Origin: Actinopolymorpha pittospori | GTDB lineage: Bacteria; Actinomycetota; Actinomycetes; Propionibacteriales; Actinopolymorphaceae | Length of the DNA stretch: 64,000 nt | Direction of reading: 5' to 3' | NCBI RefSeq assembly: GCF_014873875.1 | Contig: NZ_JADBEM010000001.1 | Location: forward strand, 1,674,001-1,738,000 | Shown: positions 2,331 through 48,370 of the stretch, piece by piece | Layout: each line of letters opens with the position of its first letter | How positions within the stretch are numbered: position 1 is the first letter of the stretch | Translations under genes and position numbers: made by a program | Notes under the pieces: model-generated | Told to the model about the DNA's origin: nothing | Seen by the model: only the letters and a program-made list of their open reading frames with translations | The model's database searches: none

Positions 2331-3070
2331 GTTTCGCGGCCTGCTGCGTTGACCACTGGCGTGGTCGCGGTCTCCTGCGTGGCTCCACGTCCGTCTCCCA
2401 CCCTGCCGTCGTTGGTCTGGTGGGCGGCCGGTCTACTCCCGGTACCGGTCCCCGTTCCACCCGTGTGCAGGGTGTCGCCGAGGCGGGCGAGGTTGATCGC
2501 GGCGTTGCGATCACGGTCGATCATGACTTCGCAGTGTTCACACGCATAGGTCCGGTCGGCCAGGGTCAGGTTTGGTTTTCGCCTGCCGCAGGCCGAACAG
2601 GTCTTGGATGAGGGGTAGAACCTGGGTACTTCCACCAGGGTGGAGCCGTACCAGCGGGTCTTGTAGGCGAGCATCCGCCGGATCTGCGCCAACGCCGCGT
2701 CAGCAAGTGCCCGGTTCAGGCCCCGCTTGTAGGCACCACCAGCCGAGCGCATGCCGGAGGCGTTCAACGTCTCCACCGTGATGACCTGGTGGCGTTGCGC
2801 GAGGAAGGTGGTGGCCTTGTGCAGCACGTCCCGACGCAGGGCCGCCGCACGGGCATGCGTTCGGCCGATGCGGGCCTGCGTGTGCTGCCACCCCTTCGAC
2901 GGAGCCCGCCTGGCCTTCGTGGCCGGATCGTAGGGACCGATCTGGCGCGCCGCGCGTCGTTGCAGCACCCGCAGCCGGGCCTGCGCCGCGGTCAGCGACT
3001 TCGGGGCACCAACCCTGCCCAGTTCACGACCATCCGGGGTCGCGACCACCAACAACGCGTCCGCCTTCAC
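2264..3070 (-). pseudogene. tnpB: TnpB, C-terminal part (RuvC II/III and zinc finger)
   Basis: Second half of a split IS607-type TnpB, 268 codons from a GTG that overlaps the stop of the first half (GTGA). It carries the RuvC-II glutamate (ITVETLN), the CxxC...CxxC zinc ribbon (CSACGRRKPN ... CEHC) and the RuvC-III aspartate (DRDRNAAINLAR), then a 65-residue low-complexity tail typical of actinobacterial IS607 TnpB. Removing 11 bp (GTGAAGGCGAG, duplicated at 3062-3081) fuses it in frame to the first half. Translational coupling could in principle yield a two-part protein, but a slippage-type mutation is the simpler reading. Confidence 0.8.
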
Positions 3071-3768
3071 CTCGCCTTCACCCCCACATCCACGCCCACC
3101 ACCGGTTCGCGACGCCCGACATGCCCGGGCACCCCTGCGGCGCGCTGAAGGACGGCCTGGAAAGACACATGCCAGCGTCCAGCAGAGTCATGGGCCAGGG
3201 TGGCGGACAGGATTCGGGCGGTACCCGCCTCGACGCGGCGGGCGAGTTTGCGGGTGGACTCATGCGTCTTGAGCCTGCCCAGTCGCGGGAGGGTGACGTG
3301 GTGCCGGTCGGGTTCGACCCGGATCGTTCCGGTGGTGAACCGCACCGACGCGTGGGACCGCTTCGACTTGAACCGGGGGAACCCAACCGCCCGCCCGGCG
3401 CGCTGGCCCCTCCGCGACTTGGACCAGGCATCCAAGCCGCGCGCTAGGGCATCCAGGCCGGTGCTGTAGGCCTCCTTGGAGTTCTCACCCCACCACGGCG
3501 CCACGCTGTCCTTGCGGGCATTCCACTCCCGCCGCAACGCGGGAAGGAACCAACCCAACGTCGGGGTGAGGCCCTCCTCCGGCACGGCGTAGCTGCGCTC
3601 GGCCACCCGCTGGTCCATCACCGCCCGCACCAGACCGAGCATCGTGTTGTGCGCCTTACGGGCACCACCCGCATGCGACCAAAACCTCCGCTCCTGGACG
3701 GGCGTGGGGTCAAGCGCGTACCGGTACGCCTGCACCACCCAGCCATCGGGGACCTCGAACCTGGCCAT
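3067..3768 (-). pseudogene. tnpB: TnpB, N-terminal part
   Basis: First half of the split TnpB, 233 codons from ATG 3768 (a GTG one codon earlier is also possible). It opens with the usual QAYRYALDPTPVQE segment, contains the GFPRFKSKR signature of the OrfB/TnpB family, and reaches the RuvC-I motif VVGVDVGVK (Asp about residue 227) just before the premature TGA at 3067-3069. Its start overlaps the tnpA stop (GTGATG), as in intact IS607 elements. Loss of frame directly after RuvC-I separates the nuclease acid residues onto two polypeptides. Confidence 0.8.
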
Positions 3769-4286
3769 CACACCACCCCCGCGTGCGACAACGCGTCCGG
3801 CACCGCCACTGGCTCCGGGGCGGTGGTCTTGGCGGCGGTGACCGCCCCCATCGCCCGGGCCCTAGTACCACGACGGCCGTACAACCTCACGCACATTCCG
3901 GTGAGCACCTCGATCATGTCGGCCACCAGATCATCGGTGGTCTCACCATCGTCGGTGGTCTCACCGGGGTCGGCGACAACGATCCGGCGGCCCTGGCCCG
4001 ACAGGGCCGCTTCCAGATGCTCCACGCCGAAGCGGGCGAGCCGGTCGCGGTGTTCCACAACCACCACCATGGCAGACGCCTCCGACAAGACGCGTGTCAA
4101 CTTCGGCCGCCTCCCGTTCAGCCCCGACCCAACCTCGGTGACAACCTCAGCAGCGCTATGGCCGTGAGTCATGGCCAGAGGACGTGCCCAACCAGAAAGC
4201 CGAGCGACCTGCCGATCCAAACCCGCGCGCCGGTCATGCGAAGACACCGGTTCATACACCACCGCCCGACCGCCCCTCAGCAACAT
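3768..4286 (-). pseudogene. tnpA: IS607 serine recombinase TnpA, N-terminally truncated
   Basis: Small serine recombinase of IS607 type: family segments GLDRQVARL, VVVEHRDRLARFGVEHL and MCVRLYGRR are present. The N-terminal helix-turn-helix that normally precedes the catalytic domain is absent: an in-frame TGA lies 30 bp upstream of ATG 4286, and only degenerate look-alike sequence (LRSGTVCFD) can be read in a neighbouring frame. The resolvase active-site segment reads VVYEPVSS where the family has Y-A-R-V-S-S. The serine is present, but the conserved arginine two residues before it is Pro. Likely inactive on both counts. Confidence 0.75.
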
Positions 4287-5197: not shown

Positions 5198-6046
5198 TCA
5201 CCGGCGGACGGCGAAGTCGGCCACCATCGGCAGGTGGTCGGAGCCGTCAGCGGTGGTGAGCACCTGGGTCTTGCGGGGCTGCAGGTCCGGCGAGCTCAGC
5301 ACGAAGTCGATGCGGGCGTGCGGGTCCTCCTGGGAGTAGGTGTAGCCGTCACCCACGCCGACCTCGGCCCAGGAGTCGGTGAAGACACTGGTCAGCGTCT
5401 TGATCTCGGTCGTGTCGGCGGTGGCGTTGAGGTCACCGGTGAGAACCGTCCGCTTGGGGTTGTCACCGAGGAGTTCGACGATCTTCTCCGCCTGCATGAT
5501 CCGCTCAGCGGAGTTGTCGTGCTGCAGGTGGGTGTTGGCGAAGCGCATCTCCACACCGCGCACCTTGATGTCGGCGACCAGCAGACCGCGCTGCTCGTGG
5601 TTGTCGATCTTCGGCAGGTAGGTGTTGCTCCAGGACCGGATCGGGAAGCGGGACAGGATCGCCGTGCCGTACTGGCGACGCTCCTGGCCGGGCGCTGCCG
5701 GGTCCATGTCGAGGTTCGCGCCGTACACGACGTGCATGTCCAGCGCGTCGGCGAGCCAGGCCGCCTCGTCGACGAAGGCGCTGCGCTCGCTCCAGTGCCG
5801 GTCGACCTCCTGCAGGCCGATCACGTCCGCGCGGAGTTGGCGGATCTCTCCGGCGACGTCGGCCAGGTCGAGCACGTCGTCGGGGCCGGCGGCGTGGTGG
5901 ATGTTGTACGTCGCCACCCGCAGCCGGACCGGCTGCCCCTCCGCGTTGGCGGGCACGGCGGCCGCACCGACCGAGGTGGCCAGCATCACCGCGGCGGCAC
6001 CCACGAGGGTGAGGACACGCGCGAGGCGCGGAATACGTCGAAGCAC
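5198..6046 (-). CDS. Secreted endonuclease/exonuclease/phosphatase family protein
   Basis: Exported EEP-fold hydrolase, 282 aa from GTG 6046. That start was chosen because AAGGGAGCT lies about 5 bases upstream and the N-terminus then becomes a clean signal peptide (LRRIPRLARVLTLVGAAAV ... GAAAVPANAEG, cleavage near residue 36). Catalytic motifs match its neighbour: ATYNIHHAAG, LQEVDRHWSERSAF, TGDLNATADT, SDHLPMVADF. The block around EVDRHWSERSAF is identical in both paralogues, indicating a fairly recent tandem duplication. It lies 24 bp upstream of the cytoplasmic copy on the same strand, so they are probably cotranscribed. Confidence 0.87.
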   Translation of the reverse strand: MLRRIPRLARVLTLVGAAAVMLATSVGAAAVPANAEGQPVRLRVATYNIHHAAGPDDVLDLADVAGEIRQLRADVIGLQEVDRHWSERSAFVDEAAWLADALDMHVVYGANLDMDPAAPGQERRQYGTAILSRFPIRSWSNTYLPKIDNHEQRGLLVADIKVRGVEMRFANTHLQHDNSAERIMQAEKIVELLGDNPKRTVLTGDLNATADTTEIKTLTSVFTDSWAEVGVGDGYTYSQEDPHARIDFVLSSPDLQPRKTQVLTTADGSDHLPMVADFAVRR

Positions 6047-6252
6047 GAACAGCTCCCTTCCCGGCAACTGAACTGGGTCGAGCACCCATCCCACAAGGCC
6101 CGCAGGGCCTGAGCGTGCACGGCGCATTAACACTCGGCGACGAGCCCGACCCCGGCGGTGCATGCCAAGCTAGCGCTTTCCGGTCCTGGGCGGATCTGCG
6201 CGCGCCCGGACCGGCCGATGCCGGTCAGGACACCACGGAGGGCAGCCCGGAC

Positions 6253-43201: not shown

Positions 43202-44680
43202 TCAGGCCTCCTGCTCGGACTTGTCTCCGGACCAGTCGAGGTGGAAGGACCCCTCGGCGTCGGTCCGGCGGTAGGTGTGCGCCCCGAACAGGTCGCGCAG
43301 ACCCTGCAGCAGCGCGGCCGGCAGCCGGTCGCGGCGCAGCGCGTCGTAGTAGGACAGCGCGGCACCGAACCCGGGCACCGGAACTCCGGCGGCGGCGGCC
43401 GTCGCGACCACCCGGCGCCAGGACTCCTGACCCTCGTTGACCGTGCGCGCGAAGTACGGGTCGACCAGCAGCGAGGGCAGGTCGGGGGTCTTCTCGTACG
43501 CCTCGCGGATCCGGTCCAGGAACCGGGCCCGGATGATGCAGCCGCCGCGCCAGATGGTGGCCATGGCGCCCAGGTCGATGTCCCAGTCGTAGGCCTCCGC
43601 GCCGTCGCGGATCATGTCGAAGCCCTGCGCGTAGGCCACGACCTTCGACGCGTACAGCGCCCGGCGGACGTCCTCGACGAACTCCTCCGGCTTGTCGATC
43701 GTGATCTTCGTCGACGGCCCCTCGAGCACACCGTTGGCCGCCTGGCGCTGCTCGGCGTGGCCGGAGACGGACCGCGCGAAGACCGCCTCGGCGATCCCGG
43801 ACACCGGCGTACCGAGGTCCAGCGCGATCTGCACCGTCCAGCGTCCGGTGCCCTTCTGCTCCGTCTGGTCGAGCACGACGTCGACGAAGGCGCCCTCACC
43901 GCGCGGGTCCTTCGCGGCGAGGACCTCTGCGGTGATCTCGATCAGGAACGACTCGAGGTCGCCGGAGTTCCAGGTCCGGAAGATCTCGGCGAGCTCCTCG
44001 GTCGACTTGCCGAGCACGGTCCGGAGCAGGTCGTACGCCTCGCCGATGAGCTGCATGTCGGCGTACTCGATGCCGTTGTGGACCATCTTCACGAAGTGCC
44101 CGGCACCGTCGGCGCCGACGTGCGTGCAGCACGGCGTGTCGTCGACCTGCGCGGCGATCGACTCGAGGATGGGGCCGAGCGTCTGGTAGGCCTCGGCGGT
44201 GCCGCCGGGCATGATGCTCGGACCCAGGAGCGCGCCCTCCTCGCCGCCGGAGATCCCGGTGCCGACGAAGTGCAGGCCGCGTTCGCGGAGCGCCGACTCA
44301 CGGCGACGCGTGTCGATGAAGTGCGCGTTGCCCCCGTCGACAACGATGTCGCCGGGTTCGAGCGCGTCCGCCAACTGCTCGATCACCTCGTCGGTACCCG
44401 CACCCGCCTGGACCATGATGATCACCTTGCGCGGCCGCTTCAGCGAACGCACCAGGTCCTCGATCGAGTCACACACGATGAAGGTGCCCTCATCGCCATA
44501 GGTGGCGACGAGCGCGTCGGTCCGCGCCTTCGTACGGTTGTGAACGGCGACGCTGTGGCCGTGACGGGCGAGGTTGCGGGCAAGGTTGCGGCCCATGGTG
44601 GCGAGTCCGGTGACCGCGATGTCAGCCTGCGCCGGCTGCTTGGCGGAGCTGCCGTTGGGCTCGGTCGTCGTTTCCGTCAT
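43202..44680 (-). CDS. gnd: 6-phosphogluconate dehydrogenase, decarboxylating
   Basis: NADP-dependent oxidative decarboxylation of 6-phosphogluconate in the pentose phosphate pathway, 492 aa (the long, classical dimeric form). Rossmann start IAVTGLATMGRNLARNLARHG, GGNAHFIDTRRRE, GTGISGGEEGALLGPSIMPGG and the catalytic Lys in GHFVKMVHNGIEY (about 200) are present. GAGAGGA lies 7 bases ahead of ATG 44680. Its first 59 bp overlap the 3' end of anmK, which reads through in another frame. It is followed by the RpiB-like isomerase. Confidence 0.95.
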   Translation of the reverse strand: MTETTTEPNGSSAKQPAQADIAVTGLATMGRNLARNLARHGHSVAVHNRTKARTDALVATYGDEGTFIVCDSIEDLVRSLKRPRKVIIMVQAGAGTDEVIEQLADALEPGDIVVDGGNAHFIDTRRRESALRERGLHFVGTGISGGEEGALLGPSIMPGGTAEAYQTLGPILESIAAQVDDTPCCTHVGADGAGHFVKMVHNGIEYADMQLIGEAYDLLRTVLGKSTEELAEIFRTWNSGDLESFLIEITAEVLAAKDPRGEGAFVDVVLDQTEQKGTGRWTVQIALDLGTPVSGIAEAVFARSVSGHAEQRQAANGVLEGPSTKITIDKPEEFVEDVRRALYASKVVAYAQGFDMIRDGAEAYDWDIDLGAMATIWRGGCIIRARFLDRIREAYEKTPDLPSLLVDPYFARTVNEGQESWRRVVATAAAAGVPVPGFGAALSYYDALRRDRLPAALLQGLRDLFGAHTYRRTDAEGSFHLDWSGDKSEQEA

Positions 44681-46076
44681 GCTTCGATCCTCTCGCTTGC
44701 GCGGGCTCGATCCTCAGTCGGGTCGGAACGGCGCCCGATGGTTCGGGGAGCCGAAGCGGGCCGTCACCGGGCGTGAGACTTCCCAGGACGGAGGCTGTGT
44801 CCGCACCTGTGCAGGCCGGCACCGTCCCCGGTACCCCGTGGAACGTGAGAAAACCCAACAAACCGAACGCGTACGCCTCCTTGCTGTCGGCCGGGAGCCC
44901 GAGATCGTCGACCGGTCGGATGACGAGGGTCCCCGCAGAGGTGGCCGCGGTCTGGCCACTGGGCGGCGCGGGCTCGGGACTACCGGCCACGGGTCCGGTC
45001 GGGTTCTCGGTGTGTGCTCGCTCGGTGTGTGCTTGCTCGGTGTGTGCTTGCTCGGTGGAGTCGCCGACGGCTGCACTGACACCGGCGAGTTCGCTGATCC
45101 GACGCATCAACCACGCATTTCGGACCCCTCCACCTGACACGATCAGCTCACCCACGGCGTGGGTCCGGCAGTCGCGGACAACGACGCGGGCGGTCAGCTC
45201 GGTCACGGTCGCGATCACGTCGACCGGTGCCAGGCCGGGGAAACGCTCGAGGCGGGCGTCGAGGTATCCGGAGTGGAAGAGTTCCTTGCCGGTCGACTTG
45301 GGCGCCGGCCGGTCGAAGTACGGGTCGTCCAGCAGCGCGTCGAGCAGCCCTTCGTGCACGGTGCCGGAGGCGGCGAGGGCGCCGTCGACGTCGTAGGGCC
45401 GGTCGAAGTAGTGGCGGCAGGCGAGGTCGATCAGGGCGTTCGCCGGGCCCAGGTCGTAGGCGAGGACGGTGCCGTCGGGTCGGACGAGGGTGAGGTTGGC
45501 GATGCCGCCGAGGTTCAGCGCCGCCCGCGCGACCGGCCCGGGCGGCAGCAGCAGGACGTCCAGGATGCTGACCAGCGGCGCTCCCTGTCCGCCCCGGGTG
45601 ATGTCGCGGCTGCGGAGATCGGAGACGACCGGCGTATCGGTGCGCTGCGCGATCCACGCCGGTTGGCCCAACTGGAGGGTGCCGCGCGCCTGCCCGGACT
45701 CGATCCAGTGGAAGACGGTCTGGCCGTGGGAGACGACGAGGTCGGCCCGGCCGTCTGCGAGCTCCGCGATTCCGCGGGCCGCCGCCTCGGCGAACGCCTG
45801 CCCGAGCAGCGTGTCGAGCCGGCAGACGTCCTCCAGCGACACCCGCGCGGGCGGCAGCACCTGTCCGATGAGGTCGCGCACGGCCGGGTCGTGGGGGTGT
45901 TCGAGGTCGCCGAGGGGCTGGAGCACGATCTCCGCGCCGTCGAAGTGGAAGTCGGCGGCGGCCACGTCGATCCCGTCGTACGACGTGCCGGACATCAGCC
46001 CGATCACCCGCGTCGTCGTACCCGGCCCGACCCCTGACCTGTCACCTGACCTGTCACTCGTCGTGTCGCGCCCCAT
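44622..46076 (-). CDS. anmK: Anhydro-N-acetylmuramic acid kinase, C-terminally extended
   Basis: Phosphorylates anhydroMurNAc (with ring opening) in cell-wall recycling. 484 aa against the usual 370-400. The family start TRVIGLMSGTSYDGIDVA, SHGQTVFHW, LNLGGIANLTLV, AYDLGPANALIDL and SGGGVRNAWLMRRI are all present. Two additions explain the length: a Gln-Ala-His-Thr-Glu repeat with a Pro/Ala linker near residues 350-390, and a C-terminal extension of about 35 residues past the normal end (LGSLTPGDGPLRLPEP) that runs into gnd. ATG 46076 was chosen; upstream ATGs overlap the divergent methyltransferase gene. Confidence 0.88.
   Translation of the reverse strand: MGRDTTSDRSGDRSGVGPGTTTRVIGLMSGTSYDGIDVAAADFHFDGAEIVLQPLGDLEHPHDPAVRDLIGQVLPPARVSLEDVCRLDTLLGQAFAEAAARGIAELADGRADLVVSHGQTVFHWIESGQARGTLQLGQPAWIAQRTDTPVVSDLRSRDITRGGQGAPLVSILDVLLLPPGPVARAALNLGGIANLTLVRPDGTVLAYDLGPANALIDLACRHYFDRPYDVDGALAASGTVHEGLLDALLDDPYFDRPAPKSTGKELFHSGYLDARLERFPGLAPVDVIATVTELTARVVVRDCRTHAVGELIVSGGGVRNAWLMRRISELAGVSAAVGDSTEQAHTEQAHTERAHTENPTGPVAGSPEPAPPSGQTAATSAGTLVIRPVDDLGLPADSKEAYAFGLLGFLTFHGVPGTVPACTGADTASVLGSLTPGDGPLRLPEPSGAVPTRLRIEPAQARGSKHDGNDDRAQRQLRQAAGAG
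45006..45050 (-). repeat. Three 15-bp tandem repeats in anmK
   Basis: Unit CTCGGTGTGTGCTYG (plus strand) three times plus a partial fourth, encoding repeats of Glu-(Gln/Arg)-Ala-His-Thr. In-frame length polymorphism is expected. Confidence 0.85.
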
Positions 46077-46101
46077 GCCCTGGGACGCGATCCCTGGCAC
46101 G

Positions 46102-46816
46102 ATGCTGCCCATGTCCGCCGCCTCCACTCCAGACCCGACCCTTCGCCCCGACATCGACTGGTTCGACTGGCACGCACCCTACGGTGACCCCGGAAGCGAG
46201 CTGTCCCGAAGACTGCAGGTGGTCCAAGGCCACATCCGGCGCGCGCTCTCCGAACGGGCACCGGGTCCGATCCGCGTGGTGAGCCTGTGCGCGGGCCAGG
46301 GACTCGACCTGATCGGCGTCCTGGCCGACCACCCGCGCCGGTCCGACGTCTCCGCCCGGTTGGTCGAACTCGATCCGCGCAACGTCGCCATCGCGCGGGA
46401 GGGGGTCGCCGCGACCGGGCTGAGCTCCGTCGAGGTGGTGGCCGGGGACGCCGCGGTCACCGACGCCTACGCCGGCGCCGTCCCGGCCGACCTCGTCCTG
46501 TGCTGTGGTGTCTTCGGCAACGTCAGCGACGAGGACATCGCTCACACGCAGCCGACCCCGAACGACTCACCGTCCACCCCCGGTGTCCCCGAGTCGAACC
46601 CGCGCTCCTCGAACCCCGCGTCCGCGAACCACGCCCGGATCTGGGGAGTCGCGTCGGGCGCGGCCCGGTGCCGGGTCCAGACGACGACCGCGTCCGGCGC
46701 GCACAGCTGCGGCAGGGTGGCCACGTTATGTCCTACGGGCGACGCCGTCACCGCTTCGGACCGGCGTACGGATGTTCCGCTTCGTACGGCCGGGGCAGGC
46801 ACGCCACCTGACCTGA
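46102..46816 (+). pseudogene. Class I SAM-dependent methyltransferase with inverted C-terminal segment
   Basis: Starts at ATG 46102 or 46111, divergent from anmK. The plus-strand N-terminus is a normal SAM-binding domain (IRVVSLCAGQGLDLIGVLADHPRR, VELDPRNVAIARE, VLCCGVFGNVSDEDI). Plus-strand family sequence stops at 46539. The next family block, ATLPQLCAPDAVVVWTRHR then IRAWFADAGFEERGFDSGT, is on the minus strand between 46734 and 46542. The C-terminal end (LRTGVRMFRFVRPGQA) is again on the plus strand, to the stop at 46816. So the middle of the C-terminal region is inverted in place and the gene as written is broken. Confidence 0.85.
46532..46734. other. Intragenic inversion bounded by 7-bp inverted repeats
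   Basis: The inverted block is flanked by AGGACAT (46532-46538) and ATGTCCT (46728-46734). Re-inverting between these restores the block order and orientation but leaves frame offsets of about 1 nt at the left joint and 2 nt (plus a TGA) at the right. This points to an imprecise event at microhomology, or an assembly artefact, and less to a clean switch. Confidence 0.75.
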
Positions 46817-46833
46817 GAGCCCAGTATTTCACC

Positions 46834-46850
46834 ATTGACTTATATAAGTC
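46834..46850. promoter_or_regulatory. ArsR-type operator upstream of the SRPBCC gene
   Basis: Perfect 14-bp palindrome GACTTATATAAGTC (46837-46850) inside ATTGACTTATATAAGTC. TTGACT at 46835-46840 can act as -35, with AATGAT 17 bp later as -10. The first 12 bases recur upstream of the ArsR gene at 47968-47979. Confidence 0.75.
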
Positions 46851-46918: not shown

Positions 46919-47941
46919 ATGGCAGATCCGAGCAGCATGGTCACCGGTACCGAACGACGTGTCTTCCGGTTCGGGCGGAGTCGGGGCGTCGCCGCCCTCC
47001 GCCACTACGACGCCGCACCGGAGGAGGTGTGGAACGCCTGGACCGACCCGGCTCGACTCGCTCGCTGGCTCGGCGAGGTCACCGGCGACCGGCGTGAGGG
47101 CGGGACCGTCCGGGTTCACCTCGGGAACCCCGGCGAGCCCGACGCGGTGGCGACGTGCCAGGTCCTGCGCTGCGACCCGCCCCGCCGCCTGACCGCCACC
47201 TGGTCCTTCCCCGGCGAACGCGACTCCGCCGTCGACCTTCGGCTCCACCCCGACGGATCGGGCTCGACGCTTCGACTCGAGCACGTGGGCCTGGCGCAGG
47301 CCCGCCTCGCACTCGGATCCGGATGGGAGACCGTCCTGCTGCGGCTCGGGGAGTTCCTGCACGGCGCGGACCCGGCGCGACTCCCCTGGTCGGAGACCGA
47401 GCCGACGCTCGCACCCCTGTGGTCGGCCCGCGCGGAGGTCGCCGAGACCGACGACCGTTGGCCCTCAGCGGTCTCGACCGCCGAGACCTCGACGCTCGAG
47501 TGCGGCCGCGACGTCGCCGCACCCGCCGACCAGGTCTGGGCGGCGGTCACCGACCCGAACCGGCTCGCCCGGTGGTTCGCCTCCGTCGAGGGCGAGCAGC
47601 AGATCGGTGGAGCCTGGACCGCGACCTTCTCCAACGGGAAGGCCCACGGCGTGGTCGAGGAGTGCGTGCCCGGCGAGCGCCTGGTCACCTCGTGGCGCTG
47701 GGACCACGAACCCGACGGCGCGACACCCGCCCGGGTGACGCTCAGCCTCCACCCGAGCGAGTCGGGCACCTCCGTGACGCTCACCCAACGCGGTCCGGCC
47801 ACGCCGGCCGCGACCGGTCTCGCCGCGGGCTGGTACGCCCACCTGGCCGGCCTCGCGTCGTACCTGGGAGGCAGCGAACCGGCCGAGACCGACTGGAACG
47901 CCGACTTCGCGCTGGCCCGGGTGGTGCTCCGCGACCAATGA
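46919..47941 (+). CDS. Two-domain SRPBCC (AHSA1/START-like) protein
   Basis: 340 aa with two tandem AHSA1-type SRPBCC domains. The first starts VAALRHYDAAPEEVWNAWTDPARLARWLGEV (about 24-54), the second ECGRDVAAPADQVWAAVTDPNRLARWF (about 195-222) with GERLVTSWRW. ATG 46919 has GAGGA about 10 bases upstream; an open frame back to ATG 46859 is possible. Such genes are usually paired with an ArsR repressor, as here; the ligand is unknown. A hydrophobic-ligand-binding or stress role is inferred only. Confidence 0.85.
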   Translation: MADPSSMVTGTERRVFRFGRSRGVAALRHYDAAPEEVWNAWTDPARLARWLGEVTGDRREGGTVRVHLGNPGEPDAVATCQVLRCDPPRRLTATWSFPGERDSAVDLRLHPDGSGSTLRLEHVGLAQARLALGSGWETVLLRLGEFLHGADPARLPWSETEPTLAPLWSARAEVAETDDRWPSAVSTAETSTLECGRDVAAPADQVWAAVTDPNRLARWFASVEGEQQIGGAWTATFSNGKAHGVVEECVPGERLVTSWRWDHEPDGATPARVTLSLHPSESGTSVTLTQRGPATPAATGLAAGWYAHLAGLASYLGGSEPAETDWNADFALARVVLRDQ

Positions 47942-47967: not shown

Positions 47968-47982
47968 ATTGACTTATATTCA
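47968..47982. promoter_or_regulatory. Second ArsR operator, upstream of arsR
   Basis: ATTGACTTATATTCA repeats the first 12 bases of the site at 46834; the right half-site is imperfect (TTCAA for TAAGTC). It overlaps a TTGACT -35 and lies 25 bp before the ArsR start, as expected for autoregulation. Confidence 0.65.
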
Positions 47983-48004
47983 AACGCTCCGAACAATCGA
48001 GGAC

Positions 48005-48370
48005 ATGCACGCCTTCGACGTTCTCGGTGACCCCGTACGCCGGCGCATCCTCGACCTGCTCGCCGACGGCGAACAGACCGCGGGATCGATCGTGGAGACC
48101 GTGCGAGAAGAGTTCGGGATCAGCCAGCCGGCGGTCTCCCAGCACCTCCGGGTGCTCCGCGAGAACGGCTTCGCGACGGTGCGCGCCGAAGGCACCAGAC
48201 GGCTGTACTCCGTGGACGCCACCCCGCTGCAGGAGGTGGACGCGTGGCTCGACCGCTACCGCGGCTTCTGGAGCCAGCGCCTCGACGCCCTCGGCACCGA
48301 ACTCCGCCGCGGCGCGCGGAACCGAACGGGGCAGACGGGACGGACGAACCGCAAAGCCCAGCAGGGCTGA
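48005..48370 (+). CDS. ArsR/SmtB-family transcriptional regulator
   Basis: 121-aa winged-helix repressor: FDVLGDPVRRRILDLLADGEQTAG (about 4-27) then FGISQPAVSQHLRVLRENGF (recognition helix, about 36-55) and RRLYSVDATPLQEVDAWLDRY. There are no CxC metal-binding motifs, so it is not a classical metal sensor. It belongs to the group paired with SRPBCC proteins. ATG 48005 was chosen; the frame is open to TTG 47969, but that would lie within the operator. Confidence 0.88.
   Translation: MHAFDVLGDPVRRRILDLLADGEQTAGSIVETVREEFGISQPAVSQHLRVLRENGFATVRAEGTRRLYSVDATPLQEVDAWLDRYRGFWSQRLDALGTELRRGARNRTGQTGRTNRKAQQG

Follow-up and report, generated by a model that had tools for sequence, protein, structure and literature searches.

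Genes are more usually inactivated by a frameshift, a stop codon or an insertion sequence than by a micro-inversion. Close comparisons for the locus described here include pseudogenes left by short internal inversions and the intragenic invertons of Chanin et al. (Nature 2024, as cited in PMC11868660), in which, as that article cites them, a segment is likewise inverted inside a single coding sequence. Our locus lies in Actinopolymorpha pittospori (assembly GCF_014873875.1, contig NZ_JADBEM010000001.1, positions 1,674,001 to 1,738,000), and this 64,000-nucleotide stretch, analysed as a whole, is referred to as the window. Within it a predicted class I SAM-dependent methyltransferase gene changes strand twice along its length. 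We consider the gene most likely a pseudogene that arose by a one-off micro-inversion of a once-intact copy.

In the alignment SAM-binding motif I and a downstream acidic residue are conserved; the Pfam matches to Methyltransf_20, _25 and _12 are weak, with methyltransferase-domain scores below the curated cut-offs. The best homologues, at up to about 67-68% identity, come from Kribbella, Nocardia, Phytohabitans, Micromonospora and other Actinomycetota. The initial annotation had described a plus/minus/plus switch within this gene, and the arrangement is indeed present: the gene reads on the plus strand through DEDIAHT, continues for about 58 codons on the minus strand and returns to the plus strand for its C-terminus (Table 1). 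A profile HMM built from 79 homologues and searched against six frames of the window and of eleven relative loci fitted all three pieces in gene order (model positions 2-132, about 133-178 and about 178-210). The first matches at plus 46156-46548 (model 2-132, E 1e-64, 216-220 bits) and the second at minus 46748-46590 (model 125-177, E 1e-15; model 129-178 and 57.8 bits for the minus-strand block itself). The C-terminal piece, at plus 46697-46798 (model 179-210), is short and weak on its own, with E 0.23 in the six-frame search versus 1.8e-5 when only the three pieces are searched, and it lies exactly at the expected place. The homologues examined, including those from genomes of the same family, are collinear and without a strand-switched arrangement. 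Because the three pieces occur in order and the homologues are collinear, the strand switch is real in the sequence as given, where the arrangement is far beyond chance.

Table 1. Coordinates of the methyltransferase pieces, the 7-mers and the neighbouring genes (window positions).
Feature	Position	Strand	Basis or remark
anmK, anhydro-N-acetylmuramic acid kinase; divergent neighbour, synteny anchor	44622..46154	-	Pfam AnmK, E 2.8e-108
N-terminal 146 codons, original orientation	46111..46548	+	HMM and codon-position GC
AGGACAT, in the conserved D-E-D-I codons, outside the block	46532..46538	+	Chance-level as inverted repeat
Inverted block, 176 bp: original codons VATLPQLCAPDAVVVWTRHRAAPDATPQIRAWFADAGFEERGFDSGTPGVDGESFGVG plus 2 nt	46549..46724	-	HMM, alignment column, GC
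C-terminal remnant, original orientation: YVLRATPSPLRTGVRMFRFVRPGQARHLT, then stop	46725..46816	+	HMM up to model 210
ATGTCCT, outside the right breakpoint	46728..46734	+	Sequence reading
Two-domain SRPBCC/AHSA1 protein; downstream neighbour	46919..47941	+	Pfam AHSA1, E 3.4e-43
ArsR-family regulator	47969..48370	+	Close to anmK in 4 of 5 other genus members

Both main coding pieces are otherwise intact, being free of stops and typical in codon-position GC (0.75/0.52/0.88 for the N-terminal piece; 0.76/0.59/0.95 for the block in its minus frame). The N-terminal piece carries the motifs VVSLCAGQG, VELD, GDAA and DLVLCCGVFGN in order and terminates in SDEDIAHT. After residue 146 the plus frame departs from the family and continues into the downstream gene region, and no single frame of this gene copy holds the complete methyltransferase core.

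The breakpoints can be placed by the alignment. When the pieces are added to the 79 homologues, T146, whose codon ends at 46548, and V147, the first minus-strand residue (codon 46724-46722), fall in adjacent columns; threonine occupies the former in 64 of the 79 homologues, and valine or isoleucine the latter in 71. The inverted block therefore comprises 176 bp, 46549-46724, rather than the 203 bp originally proposed. That larger figure took the 7-mers AGGACAT and ATGTCCT as the breakpoints. Both lie at the positions assigned to them, but plus-strand family sequence continues as I-A-H-T to 46548, leaving the first 10 nt to the left of the block and the second 3 nt to its right. As crossover sites they are rejected, given that the family sequence spans the first 7-mer and 10 nt more, and given the chance statistics. 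Among 4,000 random 176-bp segments drawn from the window, 15.5% carried, no more than 20 nt from each end, an exact inverted repeat 7 bp long or longer, and 6-bp inverted pairs are likewise common by chance. The 7-mer pair, whose 7 bp is the longest exact inverted repeat near the block ends, is thus at chance level and no evidence for a mechanism. A search for inverted repeats bounding the block, as in an intragenic inverton, returned none beyond this pair, and of the longer imperfect repeats nearby, the best pairs fail to bracket the block. At the true ends a very short inverted microhomology may have been present: the family's H-R codons, which are not intact here, read CACCGN in 65 of 73 homologues and would face the T-V codons ACGGTG. 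Such a match is too short to serve as a recombinase site.

The two original joints differ. The initial annotation had reported frame offsets at both after re-inversion, whereas at T146|V147 collinearity is exact and the frame is kept; the offset holds for the other, from ...FGVG to the C-terminal piece YVLRATPSPLRTGVRMF, which is displaced by 2 nt modulo 3. Simple re-inversion of the block consequently leaves the reading frame unrestored. The conserved H-R pair expected at this second joint is incomplete and, taken with the 2-nt offset, points to the probable loss of a few bases there, a number that can be inferred only modulo 3 because the collections hold no close intact relative.

The order at the locus is gnd and anmK, both on the minus strand, followed on the plus strand by the methyltransferase, the SRPBCC/AHSA1 protein and the ArsR regulator. 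The adjacency of anmK and gnd is conserved in relatives. In a congeneric genome, G001, the position beside anmK holds an N-terminal methyltransferase stub of about 31 residues and then other sequence (G001:C106, about 5,960-6,200), and no methyltransferase was detected beside anmK in G002-G005. Members of this methyltransferase family occur elsewhere in the genomes of G001, G002 and G003, and none was found in those of G004 and G005. Because of the stub and of the lack of a copy at this site in G002-G005, the methyltransferase at the anmK site looks dispensable in the genus. The gene there may be either ancestral in the genus or a gain of the lineage leading to A. pittospori and G001. The anmK gene itself contains a 15-bp tandem repeat of 3.5 copies (window 45006-45057) encoding repeated HTEQA units, which lie within an insertion (query residues about 365-403) unmatched in relatives. 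Elsewhere in the window, at 3067-4286 on the minus strand, a serine recombinase with a Resolvase domain precedes a short TnpB-like ORF that carries an OrfB_IS605 helix-turn-helix. The pair is probably an element of the IS607 type, in which TnpB may be truncated. This recombinase, at 3768-4286, is the sole match of its family in the window.

In our proposed model, a single 176-bp inversion of the central part would have inactivated an intact methyltransferase gene, a few bases being lost at one joint in the process. The inversion may have arisen from two nearby breaks rejoined in the wrong orientation by non-homologous end joining, a form of illegitimate repair, or from a replication template switch; both are compatible with the data, which do not distinguish between them. 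Non-homologous end joining would be at hand because the source genome has four Ku genes (G000:C1 329034, 386762, 4086042 and 4817823). Such a number of Ku genes also suggests an expanded end-joining repertoire. The product of the inverted gene would be without the C-terminal third of the methyltransferase fold, which makes the gene most likely a pseudogene, and judged from its reading frame, an active enzyme from this copy is unlikely because, beyond residue 146, the plus frame no longer follows the family and reads on downstream. Decay would be little advanced, since both main pieces are otherwise undamaged. A recent event would fit such preservation, and so would an assembly error or a switch that is being maintained.

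A local assembly error, with an intact collinear gene in the organism itself, is the alternative that we regard as unlikely rather than negligible. The arrangement comes from a single genome and the homologues examined are collinear, as such an error would predict. However, an assembler would have had neither a repeat at the block ends nor a further copy in the genome to be misled by: a search of the 10.56-Mb single-contig genome found no second, intact copy of this gene, so that the copy is single. A repeat-free 176-bp inversion that also drops a few bases is not known as a common product of assemblers. Nor does the window contain any further strand switch relative to its relatives in a tblastx survey at a strict threshold, which would let weak cases escape and may miss the present one as well; at a low threshold the whole-window survey gave uninformative noise, and the low-threshold blocks on methyltransferase loci included 46547-46723. 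It is scarcely credible that the arrangement is functional, with the minus-strand 97-codon ORF (46542-46835) or the plus-strand read-through product constituting a new gene. The block is open in frames on both strands, but at a G+C content such as this one antisense frames are expected to be open, and the minus-strand ORF has no Pfam match, its conserved part being the middle of the methyltransferase. The read-through leaves the family and enters the next gene, and the arrangement is not common to the homologues examined.

That the block is a reversible inverton within the gene, captured while in its OFF orientation, with a recombinase flip restoring the enzyme in some cells, is very improbable. 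The short inverted block within one gene, its otherwise undamaged pieces and the 17 serine-recombinase domain matches in the genome would suit such a switch, and inversions within genes have been described (cited in PMC11868660). Against this, the inverted repeat is no longer than the chance 7-mer outside the true ends, one joint is still out of frame after re-inversion, and a search confined to the serine recombinase family found no invertase near the block, where invertons usually, though not obligatorily, have one; the nearest match, the sole serine recombinase of the window, is 42 kb off beside the TnpB-like gene and probably borne by an insertion sequence. A reversible switch working on a repeat of about 6-7 bp, in which the opposite orientation tolerates the small frame shift or compensates for it, is more doubtful still. 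The initial annotation had offered a switch, a microhomology scar or an assembly error while doubting a clean switch. A scar is best supported, and a switch is disfavoured because there is no true end repeat, one joint is out of frame, no invertase of the serine family is near and a congeneric copy is truncated.

As a probable micro-inversion pseudogene, the methyltransferase represents a clear example of gene loss through a short inversion, and the truncated congeneric copy suggests that the gene has been lost more than once at this site. The inversion would probably escape automatic gene callers because ORFs cross the block on both strands. A literature search found no description of short-inversion pseudogenes in actinobacteria. 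In its N-terminal two thirds the gene resembles, at up to about 67% identity, the actinobacterial homologues of the class I SAM-dependent methyltransferases (Methyltransf_20/_25/_12 region); unlike them it is broken, the C-terminal third being inverted or out of frame. It differs from the intragenic invertons of Chanin et al., as cited in PMC11868660, in having no end repeat, no adjacent invertase of the serine family and a frame that re-inversion leaves unrestored, and the single assembly examined gives no sign of both orientations. The methyltransferase micro-inversion reveals no new system. Its likeness is to micro-inversion pseudogenes, from which it shows no essential difference: a short inverted internal segment with minimal or no end repeats and one out-of-frame joint, in a sole copy of a gene that a congeneric species is also losing.
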